Below are positions 5,790 through 14,062 of a DNA stretch of 36,791 bases, piece by piece. The position numbers and the translations under genes are program-made. Below the pieces are notes generated by a model that saw only the letters and a program-made list of their open reading frames with translations, made no database searches and was not told where the DNA came from. How positions within the stretch are numbered: the stretch's first letter is position 1; every line of letters starts with the position of its first letter. This DNA is from Bacteroidales bacterium (GTDB taxonomy: Bacteria; Bacteroidota; Bacteroidia; Bacteroidales; UBA932), in the NCBI GenBank assembly GCA_012798805.1, contig JAAZMM010000040.1:1-36791 (forward strand). Reading direction: 5' to 3'.

Positions 5790-6581
5790 TTATTTTACTG
5801 ACATTCTTTTAACAAATTCCTGTACAATGAATGAGGCAACATCATCTGCATAAGTGTTCATACCGAATCCGGCATCATATCCCAGTTCTTTAGCAAGTTC
5901 ATGGGAAATACGGGGACCGCCGCATACAAGTATCATCTTGTCACGCAGGCCCTCCGCCTCCATCAGCTCTACAAGCTCGGTCATATTCTTAATGTGAATA
6001 TCTTTCTGGGTAACAGTCTGCGAGACCAGTAGTGCGTCTGCGTTGAGTTCAATTGCCTTTGCCAGGAAATCCTCGTTGGGAACCTGGCTGCCTAGATTAT
6101 AGGCTTCCAGCATTTCGTAACGCTCAAGACCAAAATGTCCGGCATAACCCTTCATATTCATTATTGCATCAATACCCACAGTATGAGCATCAGTACCTGT
6201 AGATGCACCCACAACCACCAGCTTACGCCCAATATTCTCACGAATATAGTCATCAGTCTGGTTCATATCCATCACATTTGACTCCACTTTTGGAACATAG
6301 ATGGATGAGAAATCAACTGTATGGATTGTACTACCATAGCAATTGAAGAATGTATATCCCGGAGTAAGTTCCCGGTAATATACCACTAGAGGGTTCTCAA
6401 ACCCCATACTCTTTAGAAGCTGTTTTGCTGCCTCCGTAGCCTCAGCGCTGGCCGGAACGGGAAGGGTAAAACTAAGTTGTACCTTACCGTCGTTCATCGT
6501 ATCACCGTAGGGCTTTACTTTTGTCAAATCAAGGGTCTTATCGAACTCCTTGGCAGACATTGAATATAATCCACCGCTCAT
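5790..6581 (-). CDS. kamE: lysine 5,6-aminomutase, beta subunit (B12-binding)
   Basis: The 263-residue product has an N-terminal dimerisation part and a C-terminal Rossmann-like cobalamin domain. GTDAHTVGID contains the DxHxxG motif with His133 as the expected lower axial cobalt ligand, and NMKGYAG places Lys144 where the family has the PLP-binding lysine; both positions match the numbering known for the Clostridium sticklandii enzyme. With KamD it converts beta-lysine to 3,5-diaminohexanoate through adenosylcobalamin radicals. A purine-rich AAAGGAG lies about 10 nt before the ATG, inside the kamD 3' end; one base separates the genes. Confidence 0.97.
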   Translation of the reverse strand: MSGGLYSMSAKEFDKTLDLTKVKPYGDTMNDGKVQLSFTLPVPASAEATEAAKQLLKSMGFENPLVVYYRELTPGYTFFNCYGSTIHTVDFSSIYVPKVESNVMDMNQTDDYIRENIGRKLVVVGASTGTDAHTVGIDAIMNMKGYAGHFGLERYEMLEAYNLGSQVPNEDFLAKAIELNADALLVSQTVTQKDIHIKNMTELVELMEAEGLRDKMILVCGGPRISHELAKELGYDAGFGMNTYADDVASFIVQEFVKRMSVK

Positions 6582-6582
6582 A

Positions 6583-8136
6583 CTATTTTACTCCTTTCAT
6601 TAATTTTACAAATGGATTCATATAATTCTCGCCCTTCCGGACTACTCCGTCAAGGCCTTTACCACCATTCTTAGGGCGTTTCACATCACCGAAAATACCC
6701 TTTTCGAGAGCATTGAAAAGTCCCTCGGCTACAATTTTTTCCAACAATTCCACTGCATTATTAAGTACTTTAGCAGCTCTATTGCGGATAATACCCCCCT
6801 CCTTAAACTCAACTTCATCGCCTATATCCTTCATATTGTTGAAGATATATTTGGCATTCTCAATGGCGAGATAGCGATCGCTCATAAATGGGGTGTGAAC
6901 AGCCTCAGTCGGCATACCAAGTAGCTGGATTCCCTGATTGGTCCAGATACCGATCATATTGAAAAGAGCATCCTGAATATGTCCCTTAAAGATGTTTCCG
7001 GTCATAAACTTGGTAGGAGGCATATATTTCAAAGGTGCCTTCGGGAAAATCTCACGGGTCATCTGAGCTTGTGCCAGTTCATAAAGGAAGCCATTTTCCA
7101 GCTCCGGATCCATCTCAAAAGCATGCCCCAAGCCCATTTGCTCTTCCGGAATACCGGCAAGAAGTGCAAGCTGCTCATTTATTAGATCGGAGACAAGTAC
7201 CGTGTGGGCAGCCTCGACTGCATCTGAAGTGGTAAGATAGTTATCCTCACCGGTATTTATGATAACACCTGCAAATCCGTTGATTACACGTGAGAAGAAT
7301 TGATCCACAAAAGTCCTCTGCATATTGATGTCCCTGAAGAGAATTCCATAAAGAGCATCATTGAGCATAACGTCGAGGCCTTCAAAAGCCCCCATGATGG
7401 CGATTTCAGGCATACAGAGTCCTGAACAGTAGTTGCAGAGGCGGATATAACGTCCCAGCTCCTCTCCCACCTTGTCAAGAGCTTCGCGCATAATGCGGAA
7501 ATTCTCCTGTGTGGCAAATGTACCTCCAAAACCTTCAGTCGTGGCTCCATAAGGCACATAATCGAGGAGTGATTGTCCGGTAGTGCGGATAACGGCTATA
7601 ATATCGGCACCCTGACGCGCCGCTGCTTCTGCCTGTACCACGTCTTCATAGATATTACCGGTGGCTACAATCACATATATATATGGTTTAGGGCCCTCGC
7701 CGATGGTATGAAGGTAGTGTTCACGGCGCTCGCGTCTTGCACGGATACGGTCAACCGAAGCATTCATGATCGGCTGAAGAACCTCATCAATTTTCTTTTT
7801 ATCAACTACTTCTATTCTAACTAAGTCAATGGTACCGCCGGCAACGGCTTCTGCAATCTGTTGAGGCGAAAGTCCGGTCTGAACCATAGAGTTACCTATG
7901 TAAAACAGTGCACCTTGACTCAAAACACCTTTGACCTTAAGTTCATCTACAACGACATTGGGGAGCGGTACCTGATTCTCATCAACACCATCAATACCCA
8001 AAAGTCGGCATAGAGTCCTTTCCACGGCCACTGTCGTGTAGGACTCTGCGAAAGCCTGCACATCATCGGCGATATTCTTCGCTAAAGAACGCGCATAGTC
8101 AACTTTCTTGAAATCCAATCCTAATTTGCTTTGCAT
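6583..8136 (-). CDS. kamD: lysine 5,6-aminomutase, alpha subunit
   Basis: This 517-residue protein matches KamD in length and in recognisable stretches such as SKLGLDFKKVDYARSLAKNIA at the N-terminus, VIRTTGQSLLDYVPYGATTEGFGGTFATQENF in the centre of the TIM-barrel and the C-terminal FGDVKRPKNGGKGLDGVV segment. The alpha subunit provides the PLP/substrate barrel and pairs with KamE. The reaction moves the terminal amino group of beta-lysine to carbon 5. There is no Shine-Dalgarno sequence; instead the ATG is preceded, 4 nt upstream, by a heptamer tandem repeat (8141-8197). Confidence 0.96.
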   Translation of the reverse strand: MQSKLGLDFKKVDYARSLAKNIADDVQAFAESYTTVAVERTLCRLLGIDGVDENQVPLPNVVVDELKVKGVLSQGALFYIGNSMVQTGLSPQQIAEAVAGGTIDLVRIEVVDKKKIDEVLQPIMNASVDRIRARRERREHYLHTIGEGPKPYIYVIVATGNIYEDVVQAEAAARQGADIIAVIRTTGQSLLDYVPYGATTEGFGGTFATQENFRIMREALDKVGEELGRYIRLCNYCSGLCMPEIAIMGAFEGLDVMLNDALYGILFRDINMQRTFVDQFFSRVINGFAGVIINTGEDNYLTTSDAVEAAHTVLVSDLINEQLALLAGIPEEQMGLGHAFEMDPELENGFLYELAQAQMTREIFPKAPLKYMPPTKFMTGNIFKGHIQDALFNMIGIWTNQGIQLLGMPTEAVHTPFMSDRYLAIENAKYIFNNMKDIGDEVEFKEGGIIRNRAAKVLNNAVELLEKIVAEGLFNALEKGIFGDVKRPKNGGKGLDGVVRKGENYMNPFVKLMKGVK

Positions 8137-8203: not shown

Positions 8204-9550
8204 TTATGTGTCGAGGATTTTTGCTGCCGCGTCCAGCCATTTTGGACTTACACCCAGTTTACGGGCAATATTGAGGGCCTCGTGAGGCACCTCATTATCA
8301 GCTGACTCAGTCAGCGAATAATCCATTCTAAGCCGGTCACTGCCCTCCTCTTCCACCAGCCCTTTCACTCTCCAGCATCTGGCACTGCTATCCACATTGT
8401 AGTGGGTAGTAAGGATCAATGAAAGGTTGGGGCACTCCTCAAGTATTTTGAGCAGAGAAGAGACAAGTGCACTACCTTCGGTTGGATTGGTGGTACGTGC
8501 AGGTTCATCTATGATTGCAAGCGTCTTGGCACCACTCTCTGCCAATGTAATCATCCTGTCAATGCGTACCATTTCAGCAGCAAAAGACGACAATCCTTTC
8601 TGGTAATCCTGTTCGTCACCAAAACAGAAAACTATATTTTCCACCGGTACCATTTCAGCCTTCAGCGCAGGAACCGCAAAACCAAACTGGAAAAGATATT
8701 GACAGAGACAGAGGCTCTTGAGGGCCACTGTCTTGCCTCCCATATTGGCTCCTATGATAATACCGGGCTCTCCAGATTTGTAGCAGAAAGAGAGTGTCTG
8801 GAAGAGTTTTCCCTTTTGTGCGAGAATGGATTTGACCTCAGGATGAAACAACCCTTCAAAAGAGGAACTATTTCCCAATGCAGGTATGGTAAAGGACTCC
8901 TTTTTATGCTGGATTGCTTTTGAAATGAGAATATCCAACTCAGCCAAAGAGTGTAATAATTTTTTTAATTCCGTAGAATAAGGGCGGAGCAGATTGCAAA
9001 GAACTCTTTTTATCCTCTCCTCCTCATTATAAAGCTTATCCTTGACCTCTTCATTATCAGGATCACTCTCAAGCTCCCTTCTCAGCTTACGCAACTCCAT
9101 TGAATAAGAGTCATAGACATAGAAAGTGCCTATTTTGAGACCGTCAGGGTCCAAAATGCGGATAATATTGTCAAGGTCGAAATTACTCCACACATCGGTA
9201 ATCTCCGTCTTGGAAAATAATTGTTGAACATCATCTCCCAACAGAGCAAGATGTTTGATTTCAAAAAACTCGATATCCTCAAGCGCGGATCCCTCCTCCA
9301 ATGAAACGAGAGTATTAGAGATATTGCGCAACCCCTGAAGTCTGAATTGCAGATTCTGCACAAGGCTCGGCTCTCTTTCAAGCAATAAAGTAAATCTTTC
9401 CAAAGAGGCATAGGCTTCCTCTATCTCTTCGGCAGTTGTCATCATCTCACTGTCGAGAAGATATTTACGGGCATAACCGGACTGCAATTCCAGTAAATCA
9501 AAGCAGTAGCGGATACCGCAGGGAGAGTCTATTATCTCTTTAAATGTCAT
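8204..9550 (-). CDS. kamC: MutS-family ATPase KamC of the lysine fermentation operon
   Basis: This 448-residue protein has the MutS core and ATPase domains but no mismatch-recognition domain. The helical lever-like part spans about 1-215. Walker A is GANMGGKT (267-274), the signature-like loop is GLSSFAAEMVRI (about 319-330), Walker B is LAIIDEPARTTNPTEG (about 344-359) and the switch His is in TTHY (381-384). The C-terminus VPHEALNIARKLGVSPKWLDAAAKIL resembles the MutS dimerisation helices. There is no Smr domain, so it is not MutS2. Its place between kamB and kamD points to a role in the aminomutase steps, perhaps as an ATP-driven maintenance factor, not in DNA repair. It overlaps the kamB 3' end by 11 bp, so the two are probably translationally coupled. 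Confidence 0.88.
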   Translation of the reverse strand: MTFKEIIDSPCGIRYCFDLLELQSGYARKYLLDSEMMTTAEEIEEAYASLERFTLLLEREPSLVQNLQFRLQGLRNISNTLVSLEEGSALEDIEFFEIKHLALLGDDVQQLFSKTEITDVWSNFDLDNIIRILDPDGLKIGTFYVYDSYSMELRKLRRELESDPDNEEVKDKLYNEEERIKRVLCNLLRPYSTELKKLLHSLAELDILISKAIQHKKESFTIPALGNSSSFEGLFHPEVKSILAQKGKLFQTLSFCYKSGEPGIIIGANMGGKTVALKSLCLCQYLFQFGFAVPALKAEMVPVENIVFCFGDEQDYQKGLSSFAAEMVRIDRMITLAESGAKTLAIIDEPARTTNPTEGSALVSSLLKILEECPNLSLILTTHYNVDSSARCWRVKGLVEEEGSDRLRMDYSLTESADNEVPHEALNIARKLGVSPKWLDAAAKILDT

Positions 9551-10496
9551 ATTTTTCTCTGTTCTTCACTATATCATATACGGGCAGACCTATGGCAGCG
9601 GAAAGCGTGTCGCACAGGAGGTCGGAATCGAGCACAATACCGTTGGGGGCCACCGGATTGACGCAGATAGCTATCAGTTTGCTCTTCATGCGCACGGAGA
9701 TCCTGCCTCCCCTCCTGATAAAGGATCTGTAGAGGTCCGAAGTGACGAAAATACGGGTAAAATCATTGACCACCAGCTCTTTTTCGCCCCTGGGAAGTTC
9801 TTTTTTGACCGCTTGTAGCAATCTGTTCGTCAGTGCACCCTCTACCCCTATCACAGAGTGGTTTCTGATCAAATCAGTGCTCAGGTCGGAAAAGGAGGAT
9901 ATTTCTATTTCCGTTTCCTTACCGGTAAATAGAGGAAGATTGATTAAATCAACTACAAACGATGTGCGGGCCACCAGATCCTTGATATTGGCCGAAAAAG
10001 CGGCTCCGGTCGAAAGTACCATCGCCTCGCTTATAGCGGGGGATGCCGTACTAAGCCTCGAAAGAGCTCCATCTACCAGTATCAGGTCTATACCGAAATT
10101 ATTCAATGAACTCATCCATCTTTTTAATGCACTTCCGGAAGATGGACCGGAAAGAAGGACTTTGCCCTCCTGAAGTGCTTTTGCAGTTACCACACGCCCC
10201 AATGCCGTGGTCACATCACTCACATCATACAATTCTGAAAGTATCGTTCTTTCGCGATAATGTTTTTCGCTTGTACCGAAAAACATTCCTTCTCTTATTG
10301 TAATCTCGGGTTTGGCGGTGGAAGTCACCTGATCCAGTGACTCCCCGTCAAGTCCGATTGAGGTTACCGCCACCGAAAAATAATCGGTTGGCAGTTTGCT
10401 GATAATATAGTTGAGAGACTCAGTCTTACCTGTATTCTTCTCAAGTCCGACAATAGATACACTACGGTATTTGAGTATCTCATCTATAAAGGGCAT
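9540..10496 (-). CDS. kamB: P-loop protein KamB of the lysine fermentation operon
   Basis: The start is set at the ATG at 10496, 4 nt after the kamA stop; an in-frame TTG 48 bp upstream lies inside kamA and is unlikely. The 318-residue product begins with a nucleotide-binding loop, SIVGLEKNTGKTES (about 14-27), which has one extra residue compared with the usual GxxxxGKT. Further in are TSIGLDGE and ILVDGALSRLS, the latter resembling a Walker B strand. The C-terminal part (LIAICVNPVAPNGIVLDSD) has no function I can name. It matches the position and type of the gene called kamB in known lysine clusters. The protein is cytoplasmic by sequence. Its 3' end overlaps kamC by 11 bp, which suggests paired action. 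Confidence 0.82.
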   Translation of the reverse strand: MPFIDEILKYRSVSIVGLEKNTGKTESLNYIISKLPTDYFSVAVTSIGLDGESLDQVTSTAKPEITIREGMFFGTSEKHYRERTILSELYDVSDVTTALGRVVTAKALQEGKVLLSGPSSGSALKRWMSSLNNFGIDLILVDGALSRLSTASPAISEAMVLSTGAAFSANIKDLVARTSFVVDLINLPLFTGKETEIEISSFSDLSTDLIRNHSVIGVEGALTNRLLQAVKKELPRGEKELVVNDFTRIFVTSDLYRSFIRRGGRISVRMKSKLIAICVNPVAPNGIVLDSDLLCDTLSAAIGLPVYDIVKNREKYDI

Positions 10497-10500
10497 AATC

Positions 10501-11751
10501 CTAGTGCTTACTGCGCTCTTTGCGCTCCAGGAATGCAGGCTCAATTGCCATTTTCTGGCCTTCCAGCAGAGCAGCTACCCCTTCCAGAGGTTTCTTGGGC
10601 TCTTTGCGGCACTCCTCACAGTTACACTCGAAATGATACTCTTCAGGCTCGGTATAGGTAGTAATTACGCCTTCAAAATTGCGAAGAACCACTTTACCGG
10701 GAGCATGAGAGATCACATACTGGGGCATAACGGGAGTCTTGCCACCACCACCGGGAGCGTCCACGACAAAAGTAGGTACGGCATAACCTGAGGTGTGGCC
10801 TCTTAAAGCCTCGATAATCTCGATACCCTTTGAAACAGGAGTGCGGAAATGCTCAAGACCCATTGAGAGGTCGCACTGATAGATGTAGTAGGGACGTACC
10901 CTAATCTTCACAAGTTCGTGTACAAGTTTCTTCATCACGTGAACACAATCATTGATGCCACGAAGAAGCACGGACTGGTTTCCGAGAGGAACACCTGCAT
11001 CTGCAAGTCTGGCACAAGCCTGTGCAGACTCTTCAGTAACCTCATTGGGATGATTGAAGTGCGTATTGAGCCAAATCGGATGATACTTCTTGAGCATATT
11101 CACGAGGTCATCAGTTATACGCTGGGGACAAACCACCGGCACCCTTGAGCCAATGCGAATAATCTCCACATGAGGAATAGCACGAAGTCTCTTGATAATA
11201 TCCTCAAGTTTCGCATCACTAACCATTAAGGCATCACCTCCCGAAAGGAGCACATCCCTCACCTGAGGGGTGCGGGCAATATATTCTATAGCCTTGTCTA
11301 TCCTTTCTGAAGGGCTTTCGGCATCCTTCTGTCCTGCAAAACGCCTTCTGGTGCAATGGCGGCAATACATCGAGCACATGTCGGTAATAAGGAGCAGTAC
11401 TCTGTCAGGATATCTGTGAGTAAGACCGGGAGTCGGGGAATCCTCATCCTCGTGGAGAGGATCGAGAAGATCTGCTGCCGACTGATGGGTCTCTGCACCT
11501 GTAGGAATTGCCTGCTTGCGAACGGGGTCATGTGGATCATCAGGATTGATGAGTGAAATGTAGTAGGGAGTAATGGCCATCCTGAGAGTTGAGAGTGTCT
11601 TTTTGACACCCTCTTCCTCTTCAGGAGTAAGTTTGACATATTTCTTGAGTTGGTCCAAAGTCTCAATCCTGTGTTTTACCTGCCATTTCCAGTCATTCCA
11701 CTGGGCATCGGTAACCTCAGGAAAGAGTTCTTTTCTTCTTGATACATTCAT
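10501..11751 (-). CDS. kamA: L-lysine 2,3-aminomutase
   Basis: A radical-SAM, PLP-dependent enzyme of 416 residues. The iron-sulfur motif CSMYCRHC gives Cys126, Cys130 and Cys133. The PLP lysine lies in DAPGGGGKTP (Lys338). The zinc-binding cysteines Cys269 and the C-terminal CNCEEC cluster (376, 378, 381) are present, as in the Clostridium subterminale enzyme with a one-residue offset. It catalyses the first step, L-lysine to L-beta-lysine. The product is full length with no missing key residue. It is followed by kamB after 4 bp and preceded by kdd with 9 bp. Confidence 0.98.
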   Translation of the reverse strand: MNVSRRKELFPEVTDAQWNDWKWQVKHRIETLDQLKKYVKLTPEEEEGVKKTLSTLRMAITPYYISLINPDDPHDPVRKQAIPTGAETHQSAADLLDPLHEDEDSPTPGLTHRYPDRVLLLITDMCSMYCRHCTRRRFAGQKDAESPSERIDKAIEYIARTPQVRDVLLSGGDALMVSDAKLEDIIKRLRAIPHVEIIRIGSRVPVVCPQRITDDLVNMLKKYHPIWLNTHFNHPNEVTEESAQACARLADAGVPLGNQSVLLRGINDCVHVMKKLVHELVKIRVRPYYIYQCDLSMGLEHFRTPVSKGIEIIEALRGHTSGYAVPTFVVDAPGGGGKTPVMPQYVISHAPGKVVLRNFEGVITTYTEPEEYHFECNCEECRKEPKKPLEGVAALLEGQKMAIEPAFLERKERSKH

Positions 11752-11760
11752 ATCTTTGAT

Positions 11761-12801
11761 TTATGCATAAAGGTCGGTAAATACTTTTCTCAATTTGTCG
11801 CTCTCTCTGAGTATCTGCAGGGTAATTTCTGCGTGCCCCTTGGTGTAACCGTTACCGATAATCATAGTAACGTCACTGCCTACACCTTCTGCACCGAGAG
11901 CAGCTTTTGTGAAACTGGTTGCCATAGAGAAGAAATAGATAATACCGTCATTCTTGGTGCATAAGATTGAAGTCATCTCCGTATCGGGAACATTTACGTT
12001 GTTGATGGTCACATCAGCCATTTTTCCGCCGGTGAGCTCATGAACTTTCTCGTACATAGCTATGGGATCGTTTGCATTACCTGCAAATACAACATCGCAA
12101 AAACCGAGGTCCTGCATACGTTTGGTTGACCTTTCGCTATGAGTCATACCGATGACTTTACCTGTAACACCAACACGTTTCTTTGCTTCGTAGCAGCAAA
12201 GCATACCTGATTTTCCACCTGCACCAATTATAAGCACAGTATCACCAGGCCTGCAAAGCTTCGCTGTCTGTGCAGGTGCACCTGCAACGTCCAAAGCCGA
12301 AAGAGCCAGTTTTTCAGGCATATCAGTAGGCATTTTGGCATAGATGCCACTCTCAAAGAGAATGGCCTTACCCTTGATATCCACCTGATCTACATCTTCG
12401 CGGATCTCAAGGATCTCGTCGATGCGCAGGGGAGTCAATGAGAGTGACACAAGTGTGGCAATCTTGTCACCAACCTTTAGATCAGTCTTGCCCACAAGTG
12501 CATCACCAATCTTTTCAACAGTACCAAGGAGCATACCGCCCGAACCTGTACGACGGTTGCGATGCTTACCCTGGAGTTCTACATTAAGAAGAATCTCCTT
12601 CTTCATCTCTTCCTTGTCGTGGTTGCAGAAGTTAGCTATATCGGTAAATGAAGCCGAGTCGATATTTAAAGTCTGAACATCGATTAAGATCTCGTTGTCA
12701 TAGATCTCGTCCATGTTGTTGTCAATCTTATCTGCCGGCTGGGGAAGAACGCCTTTAGGTTCTATTACACGGTGCGTTCCATACTTATTACCTTTTTTCA
12801 T
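11761..12801 (-). CDS. kdd: L-erythro-3,5-diaminohexanoate dehydrogenase
   Basis: The 346-residue protein has the features of Kdd: the N-terminal KYGTHRVIEPKGVLPQPA segment and a Rossmann fold with VLIIGAGGKSGML (about residues 188-200) for NAD(P) binding, in a medium-chain-dehydrogenase-like layout. It oxidatively deaminates 3,5-diaminohexanoate to 3-keto-5-aminohexanoate, releasing ammonia. It lies between kce and kamA in the same orientation, with 44 bp and 9 bp gaps. The A/T-rich leader carries no Shine-Dalgarno sequence. Confidence 0.96.
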   Translation of the reverse strand: MKKGNKYGTHRVIEPKGVLPQPADKIDNNMDEIYDNEILIDVQTLNIDSASFTDIANFCNHDKEEMKKEILLNVELQGKHRNRRTGSGGMLLGTVEKIGDALVGKTDLKVGDKIATLVSLSLTPLRIDEILEIREDVDQVDIKGKAILFESGIYAKMPTDMPEKLALSALDVAGAPAQTAKLCRPGDTVLIIGAGGKSGMLCCYEAKKRVGVTGKVIGMTHSERSTKRMQDLGFCDVVFAGNANDPIAMYEKVHELTGGKMADVTINNVNVPDTEMTSILCTKNDGIIYFFSMATSFTKAALGAEGVGSDVTMIIGNGYTKGHAEITLQILRESDKLRKVFTDLYA

Positions 12802-12845: not shown

Positions 12846-13673
12846 TTACTGTCTTGGAGCCAAACCAAGGATTTCGCGAGCTTCAGCAGAAGTTGCAACT
12901 TCACGACCGAGTTCTTTGGCCAATCTCACAACTTTTGCAACAAGTTCACCGTTGGATTGTGCAAGGACTCCCCTTGCAAGATAGAGGCTGTCTTCAAAAC
13001 CAACTCTCACATGACCACCCATGGAAATTGCAGGAGCAACAAGGGTAAAATTGTGACGACCGATACCGGTAGCACACCAGGTACTGCCTGCGGGAATAGC
13101 ATTCACTAGCCAGCAGAGGTTAGGAATGGTAGCAGAAGTACAACCGGGTACGCCAAGGACAAAGTTGAAGTGCATCGGATGTCCGGGTACTTCGCCTCTA
13201 CGAGCCATGTTGACTATCGTATCGAGATGACCCATTTCAAAGCACTCATATTCGGGCTTAATGTTGTTTTCTATCATTCTTTTACCGAATTCACGCATCA
13301 TCGGAATCGTATTTTCAAAGACCTCATCACCGAAATTACATGTACCGCAATCGAGAGTAGCCATTTCAGGGAAAAGCTCCGTGGGCTGAAGTCTCTCTTC
13401 CGCCGTCATGCCTACTGCACCTCCGGTAGAAGGTATTAGAATAACATCGGGGCAAGCTTTGTAGATGGCATCAATGCACTCTTTAAAGCGTGCTTTACTC
13501 TGTGTGGGAGTGCCGTCATCTTCACGTACATGGAGATGAACGATTGCTGCACCGGCATCAACAGCCGATTTGGCCTCACGTACAATTTCATAAACAGTAT
13601 AGGGAACCGCAGGGTTCTGCTCCTTAGTAACCTCTGCACCGCAAATGGCGGCTGTAATAATTAGCTTATCCAT
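12846..13673 (-). CDS. kce: 3-keto-5-aminohexanoate cleavage enzyme
   Basis: The product of 275 residues belongs to the BKACE (DUF849) family. The start is placed at the ATG at 13673, giving MDKLIITAAICGAEVTKEQNP, the typical N-terminus; an in-frame TTG 18 bp upstream overlaps kal. The zinc-binding HLHVRE motif (His-x-His, about 47-49) and the later GHLDTI and GIGRHNF segments are present. The enzyme uses acetyl-CoA to cleave 3-keto-5-aminohexanoate into acetoacetate and 3-aminobutyryl-CoA. Two bases separate it from the kal stop. Confidence 0.96.
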   Translation of the reverse strand: MDKLIITAAICGAEVTKEQNPAVPYTVYEIVREAKSAVDAGAAIVHLHVREDDGTPTQSKARFKECIDAIYKACPDVILIPSTGGAVGMTAEERLQPTELFPEMATLDCGTCNFGDEVFENTIPMMREFGKRMIENNIKPEYECFEMGHLDTIVNMARRGEVPGHPMHFNFVLGVPGCTSATIPNLCWLVNAIPAGSTWCATGIGRHNFTLVAPAISMGGHVRVGFEDSLYLARGVLAQSNGELVAKVVRLAKELGREVATSAEAREILGLAPRQ

Positions 13674-13675
13674 AT

Positions 13676-14062
13676 TTATTTTCTCTGGCAAGATTTAGGG
13701 GTTACACAAGTACCGCTTGCACGGCATACAACGATGGGCTCTTCAAGAAAATCAGCAGCTGAATCGCTGATATCCGGACGGGGAACAATCACCTTGCGAG
13801 CCTCGAACACCATTTTTCTGGAAGAATTACCTTCAGAAACGATCTCACCCACAGCCTCGATAAATTCACCGGCGTAAACGGGAGCGAAATATTCAACCAT
13901 ATCATATGCTTTGAAGAGACCTTCATCACCATCGCGTTTAATCAAAAGTTCGGTAGCGACATCACCGAAAAGCTGAAGCATTTTTGCTCCATCAACCAAA
14001 TTACCGCCGTAGTGAGCATCCTGAGAGCTCATACGTACTCTAATCATTGCTTTGTTTGCCAT
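13676..14062 (-). CDS. kal: 3-aminobutyryl-CoA ammonia lyase
   Basis: A small hot-dog-fold protein of 128 residues. [45 protein letters not shown] is the recognisable N-terminal half of Kal, and [10 protein letters not shown] follows in the fold. It eliminates ammonia from L-3-aminobutyryl-CoA to give crotonyl-CoA. Position between atoD and kce supports the call. The C-terminus contains two Cys ([11 protein letters not shown]) that I do not assign a role. Confidence 0.94.

Follow-up and report, generated by a model that had tools for sequence, protein, structure and literature searches.

The window analysed here is a contig of 36,791 nucleotides (JAAZMM010000040.1) from a member of the Bacteroidales, and our subject is kamB and kamC, two adjoining genes of a lysine-fermentation operon which runs in the order CoA-transferase subunit, kal, kce, kdd, kamA, kamB, kamC, kamD, kamE, CoA-transferase subunit, all on the minus strand. 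The kamC gene (8204..9550, ATG to TAA) encodes a MutS2-like ATPase of 448 amino acids (NF052383, 367.6 bits, cut-off 300, E 1.1e-109), and kamB (9540..10496, ATG to TAA) encodes a P-loop nucleoside triphosphatase (NTPase) of 318 amino acids with a predicted SIMIBI-like fold (NF052386, 304.6 bits, cut-off 210, E 6.7e-91); both proteins score above the curated NCBIfam cut-offs, and the family matches are far beyond chance. As the first-pass annotation of this DNA had described, and as coordinates and family matches agree, the two genes overlap by 11 bp and lie directly between kamA and kamDE; kamB is 4 bp from kamA.

Lysine 5,6-aminomutase itself is encoded by kamD (6583..8136; NF052384, 930.9 bits, cut-off 600) and kamE (5790..6581; NF052385, 413.9 bits, cut-off 280), the product of which has a lysine at position 144. 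On the other side of kamBC lie kamA, for the radical S-adenosylmethionine (SAM) enzyme lysine 2,3-aminomutase (10501..11751; TIGR03820, 626.2 bits, cut-off 525.4); kdd, for 3,5-diaminohexanoate dehydrogenase (11761..12801; NF052381, 257.8 bits, cut-off 200); kce (12846..13691; NF052387, 417.5 bits, cut-off 382); and kal, for 3-aminobutyryl-CoA ammonia lyase (13676..14062; NF052388, 188.9 bits, cut-off 160). The second CoA-transferase subunit gene is followed by thiolase-, acyl-CoA dehydrogenase- and electron transfer flavoprotein-type genes (the thiolase named by eye).

NCBIfam (2026) names NF052383 ‘lysine 5,6-aminomutase reactivase ATPase KamC’ and NF052386 ‘reactivase subunit KamB’; a reactivase reading is thus already in use as annotation and is not new. 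New here are the build of KamC, the finding that KamB and KamC are separable, and a second B12-binding protein linked to KamB.

Co-occurrence with lysine 5,6-aminomutase

In 99 genomes of the window's family, searched separately for the three proteins, KamD and KamB each scored above cut-off in 56 and KamC in 49; the KamB and KamD genome sets are identical (56/99, compared by eye) and the KamC set is nested within them. Within the window's genus, two genomes (G015 and G080) have neither KamB nor KamD, and the other five, the window's own included, have both. Two identical 56-of-99 sets would arise by chance with a probability of 5e-29, a figure that is overstated since the genomes are kin. Among 77 KamC loci, a same-strand KamB was present in all 74 with enough flank and a same-strand KamD in 72/72, and the order kdd-kamA-B-C-D-E is common to the window, A. 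noterae (Acetoanaerobium, Bacillota) and F. vincentii (of the Fusobacteriota), which is to say to three phyla. The identical distribution of KamB and KamD, the same-strand loci and the conserved gene order support KamB and KamC as partners of lysine 5,6-aminomutase.

In seven of the 72 loci, KamD lies 1.4-3.7 kb from KamC. Duplication of KamC was considered as the source of these gaps and rejected, as each locus has a single KamC and the gaps are filled by unrelated genes. The kamC-kamD junction resembles an insertion spot, with gap genes that are DUF1016- or KilA-N-like (by eye) or otherwise unrelated (L093:2236-3303, and the gaps in L031, L034, L037, L051, L052, L056 and L059). The A. noterae and F. 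vincentii sequences come from two records of 2.1-2.6 Mb filed as plasmids (NZ_CP154629.1 and NZ_CP084075.1; L101 and L102) that look chromosome-like, with lysine operons and several MutS-type genes on them.

Of the 56 kamB-kamD genomes, seven yielded no KamC above cut-off. One of them (G094) is uninformative, being broken at contig ends; in the other six (G017, G036, G054, G078, G090 and G023) the KamB-KamD region is assembled and KamC was not found. KamB directly precedes KamD in five of these regions; the sixth, that of G023, has a YhcG/DUF1016 nuclease gene (Pfam) between the two. With three KamC proteins as tblastn queries, no remnant was found at E <= 1 in the six loci; the search of the 99 genomes looked for KamC among the matches listed, of at least 199 bits, and a short KamC fragment elsewhere is possible. 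In a midpoint-rooted tree, the KamBs of this group that are complete, five in number, fall on a single branch (support 100/100 by the group table and 99/98 at the fork as drawn), the contig-cut G017 sequence having been left out. A single loss of KamC fits, because the KamC-less KamBs form one branch and KamC is present in the records from Bacillota and Fusobacteriota. Since KamB is found in all 56 kamD genomes and KamC is missing from six assembled regions, KamB looks like the core of the system and KamC dispensable. The KamC-less clade allows the contributions of the two proteins to be told apart cleanly.

Predicted architecture of KamC and KamB

KamC has the Walker A, Walker B and conserved histidine by which we define a MutS-type ATPase (GANMGGKT at 267, DEPARTTNPTEG at 348 and TTHY at 381; Pfam MutS_V, 70.9 bits). 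It is built of lever helices, the ATPase domain and C-terminal helices, without mismatch, connector, clamp, KOW or Smr parts, and the top fold matches of its AlphaFold model (predicted local distance difference test score, pLDDT, 90) are MutS2 cores. The segment between the levers, which in MutS2 we take to be the clamp, spans 49-66 residues in 33/33 KamC rows of our alignment versus 119-120 in 4/4 MutS2-like rows; the C-terminus stops 145-317 residues short of that of MutS2-like proteins and so has no KOW/Smr part, and against the MutS2 model TIGR01069 KamC scores 145 bits, under the cut-off of 400. Judged by its sequence, KamC looks like a MutS2-derived ATPase that has lost its nucleic-acid clamp. 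A. noterae has a further MutS2-like gene (L106; 199174-202719), with a 680-amino-acid frame, in which the clamp segment is kept and the C-terminal tail is short, running 145 residues past the end of KamC.

The P-loop of KamB is KNTGKT at 20, and residues 280-286 read N-P-x-x-P-x-G, with the N, both P and the G unchanged throughout 35 rows. KamB matched no Pfam family above cut-off, and its sequence gave no match in the PDB up to E 1. Its closest predicted folds are SIMIBI NTPases, the class of MeaB/MMAA, in a broad match in which MeaB is tied with signal recognition particle (SRP) GTPases and ParA. MeaB/MMAA is the repair chaperone of methylmalonyl-CoA mutase; MeaB families were not among the KamB matches in NCBIfam (E <= 0.01) or Pfam (E <= 1), and neither KamB nor KamC matched NF040744, NF040745 or TIGR01319 (the GlmL/Or-4 families).

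The first-pass annotation had read from the sequence a P-loop in KamB and, in KamC, a complete MutS ATPase core with helical levers and no mismatch-recognition or Smr domain; the motifs and lever helices could all be located. Its further proposal, that the MutS clamp is reused here on a protein, fails on the shortened between-lever segment, which leaves no room for the presumed clamp, in all 33 KamC rows.

KamB relatives beside a second B12-binding protein

In a wider sample of 247 genomes of the phylum, KamB scored above cut-off in one, the window's own, and relatives scoring 171-196 bits occur in five others (one of them contig-cut). No KamD was found in these five at E <= 0.001; KamC was above cut-off in 0/6 genomes searched (G254 included), where all matches lay in frames of at least 783 residues. 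In 5/5 the KamB relative directly follows a protein of ~600 residues. Two of these five proteins were scanned with Pfam: both carry a B12-binding domain at the N-terminus (PF02310; cut-off 32.1, scores 39.6 and 49.1 bits), and their Lys-AminoMut_A match stays below threshold (16.3 and 18.0 bits, cut-off 25). Eighteen of the 247 genomes gave any match to the ~600-residue protein, and it was full length in exactly the five genomes with KamB relatives (62-100% identity, query included); the remaining matches are partial stretches, mostly of the B12 domain.

All five genomes share a six-gene cluster for a GntR-type regulator, a diaminopimelate-dehydrogenase-like protein (TIGR01921, 334 bits in L123), DUF6917, a ~490-amino-acid PLP (pyridoxal phosphate)-type enzyme, the ~600-amino-acid B12-binding protein and the KamB-like protein, these family names being taken from single members and GntR given by eye. 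The clusters (L122-L126, in G338, G341, G314, G191 and G112; for example L123:2563-9477) belong to four other families of the same phylum. Our literature search found no paper on DUF6917 and no name for the cluster.

Lys 144 of KamE (626 in A. noterae OraE), which presumably holds PLP, is replaced by leucine in 5/5 of the B12-binding proteins, which may therefore not depend on PLP and may not be aminomutases. The Lys629 named in PMC4256349 agrees with this assignment of the PLP-holding lysine. The KamB relatives are a lead to what may be a new B12 enzyme and its pathway. We lean, by a modest degree, towards KamB being a separate SIMIBI chaperone class for B12 enzymes, distinct from MeaB and independent of KamC, with three branches: one serving KamDE together with KamC, one serving KamDE after the loss of KamC, and one serving a new single-chain B12-binding enzyme, whose N-terminal B12 domain is joined to a faint lysine-aminomutase barrel that lacks the KamE/OraE lysine, in a probably catabolic six-gene cluster; KamC would then be a clamp-less MutS2 recruited to a protein.

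A probable maintenance factor for KamDE and its known counterparts

In older reports, the native lysine enzyme consisted of a core called E1 together with E2, an activating protein of ~80 kDa, which acted with ATP, showed adenosylcobalamin (AdoCbl) synthetase activity and transferred label from ATP to E1 (PMC3958899). By the same source, recombinant KamDE (E1 only, purified cobalamin-depleted) was active and then underwent suicide inactivation with formation of cob(III)alamin, and the ATP effect was missing. A review suggests that E2 may exchange cobalamin (PMC9081730), and a figure legend of 2011 already shows lysine clusters with one gene labelled ‘mutS’ and with genes for hypothetical proteins (PMC3149608). 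The literature passages searched did not tie E2 to a gene; those of PMC10790702, PMC9403272 and PMC3091704 mention no kamB, kamC or MutS, and those that join a reactivase to an aminomutase concern diol dehydratase only. The finding of E2 is old; KamB and KamC are its natural gene candidates, and our proposal is that KamB, alone or together with KamC, is E2. An equation of KamBC with E2 by mass was rejected: KamB and KamC sum to 85.3 kDa in the window and a dimer of A. noterae KamB would have ~75 kDa, values compatible with ~80 kDa but not discriminating.

We consider it probable that KamB and KamC together form an NTP-driven maintenance factor of the AdoCbl- and PLP-dependent KamDE, with KamB as the core and KamC as an auxiliary lever. 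KamDE would trap inactive cob(III)alamin during turnover; KamB would bind at the interface of cobalamin domain and barrel and, in its NTP state, wedge KamDE open, as MeaB/MMAA does on methylmalonyl-CoA mutase; the damaged cobalamin could then leave and fresh AdoCbl enter from a PduO-type adenosyltransferase, a gene for which is present in 46/46 genomes examined (41 of the 56 kamD genomes and the five with KamB relatives). ATP-driven movement of the KamC lever arms might drive or reset the opening, acting on KamB or on KamDE, and so raise efficiency while remaining open to loss. We infer the binding and opening of KamDE, the cobalamin exchange, the nucleotide use and the role of KamC; a KamB opener with KamC as auxiliary is the simplest reading because all kamD genomes of the family sample have KamB, KamC is optional, relatives of KamB free of KamC adjoin another B12-binding protein, the predicted fold is SIMIBI-like, the clamp is lost and an adenosyltransferase is resident. 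If KamC does act on a protein, this would be a striking reuse of a DNA-repair-type ATPase.

Several points weigh against this proposal. The co-occurrence evidence is all correlational and phylogenetically dependent; the pair is not obligate, given the six KamC-less regions; the SIMIBI match is broad, and Foldseek alone gave KamB no match at E <= 0.001; NKxD, presumably the guanine-specificity motif, was not seen in KamB (by eye), so that KamB need not use GTP. KamB and KamC of A. noterae sum to 94.4 kDa (37.4 + 57.0), not 80; our literature search found no experiment on KamB or KamC, though one may exist; and OraS alone reportedly brought the ATP effect back to KamDE, which allows another reading of E2 (PMC3958899). 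Of the interpretation in the first-pass annotation, which had suggested searching for kamB/kamC with kamDE, the partnership with the aminomutase stands on co-occurrence (in the family sample the KamB set equals the KamD set, and all testable KamC loci have both), synteny, the NCBIfam names and E2 biochemistry. Clamp reuse does not stand, and nor does an obligate KamB-KamC pair, KamC being absent from one clade; finding KamBC often without kamDE had been named there as evidence to the contrary, and KamB relatives do occur without kamDE, beside another B12-binding protein.

KamB, with KamC, could instead load AdoCbl or PLP into newly made apo-KamDE, or assemble it, and have no part in repair. 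We think this unlikely: the genomic context fits it equally and MeaB both loads and repairs (passages of PMC10481361), but the activity of recombinant, cobalamin-depleted E1 suggests that assembly does not need KamBC (passages of PMC3958899). That KamB is an adenosyltransferase re-adenosylating bound cobalamin, which would explain the synthetase activity and label transfer of E2 (PMC3958899, in part) and agree with the P-loop, seems very improbable, and we rejected it: KamB has no match to the PduO/CobA families PF01923 or PF02572 in Pfam at E <= 1, its closest predicted folds are of the SIMIBI class and a PduO-type gene is already in all 46 genomes. Service to the adjacent KamA, for instance in iron-sulfur cluster maintenance, would agree with the 4-bp spacing, and some SIMIBI NTPases do handle metal centres; we hold it to be highly unlikely, however, as the KamB relatives of the five kamD-less genomes adjoin a B12-binding protein, and a tblastn search of those five stretches of 12-18 kb with KamA of the window gave no match at E <= 1. 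It is hardly credible that KamC works on DNA or ribosomes as a MutS2 paralogue and sits in the operon only by accident or in a regulatory capacity. Outside the KamC family, MutS2 proteins are its closest kin in both sequence and fold, but KamC is without the clamp, KOW and Smr parts, two further MutS-type genes (with 840- and 921-residue open frames) are present in the window's genome and the synteny is kept across three phyla.

Ornithine aminomutase offers a sister system. In A. noterae, oraS and oraE are followed by a GlmL-related gene (NF040744, 752 bits; cluster L110:89-4073), and L127:6396-9945 likewise has such a gene directly downstream of oraE (L127 by eye). A MutS-like partner for ornithine aminomutase was sought and rejected: 0/4 MutS_V genes of the A. 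noterae record lie in the oraSE cluster, the GlmL-related gene standing there instead. In A. noterae, two unrelated candidate helpers thus adjoin two homologous aminomutases, upstream for KamDE and downstream for OraSE.

At family level, the window proteins do not differ from the NCBIfam KamC and KamB families, and share their operon context. MutS2 shares with KamC the ATPase domain, lever helices and C-terminal helices, whereas KamC has a between-lever segment 53-71 residues shorter and 145-317 C-terminal residues absent. GlmL, of ASKHA fold, resembles KamBC in that its relative adjoins oraE as kamB-kamC adjoin kamDE, but it is of another sequence family, is one protein and not two, and lies downstream, not upstream, of the enzyme genes. 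DdrAB and GdrAB, the reactivases of diol and glycerol dehydratase, carry out an ATP-driven exchange of damaged cobalamin, the very task we assume for KamBC, but no such family is among the KamB or KamC matches. For MeaB systems we know of no counterpart of the MutS-like partner. MeaB/MMAA and IcmF, which are G-protein chaperones for AdoCbl-dependent acyl-CoA mutases, otherwise offer an analogy, MeaB/IcmF opening the mutase by a wedge for cobalamin loading and removal (PMC10481361): KamB has, by a broad match, a predicted SIMIBI-like fold and has a link to an AdoCbl mutase with a B12 domain that needs opening, which suggests its role by analogy, but it shares no sequence family that we found with these proteins, nor their NKxD motif (by eye).
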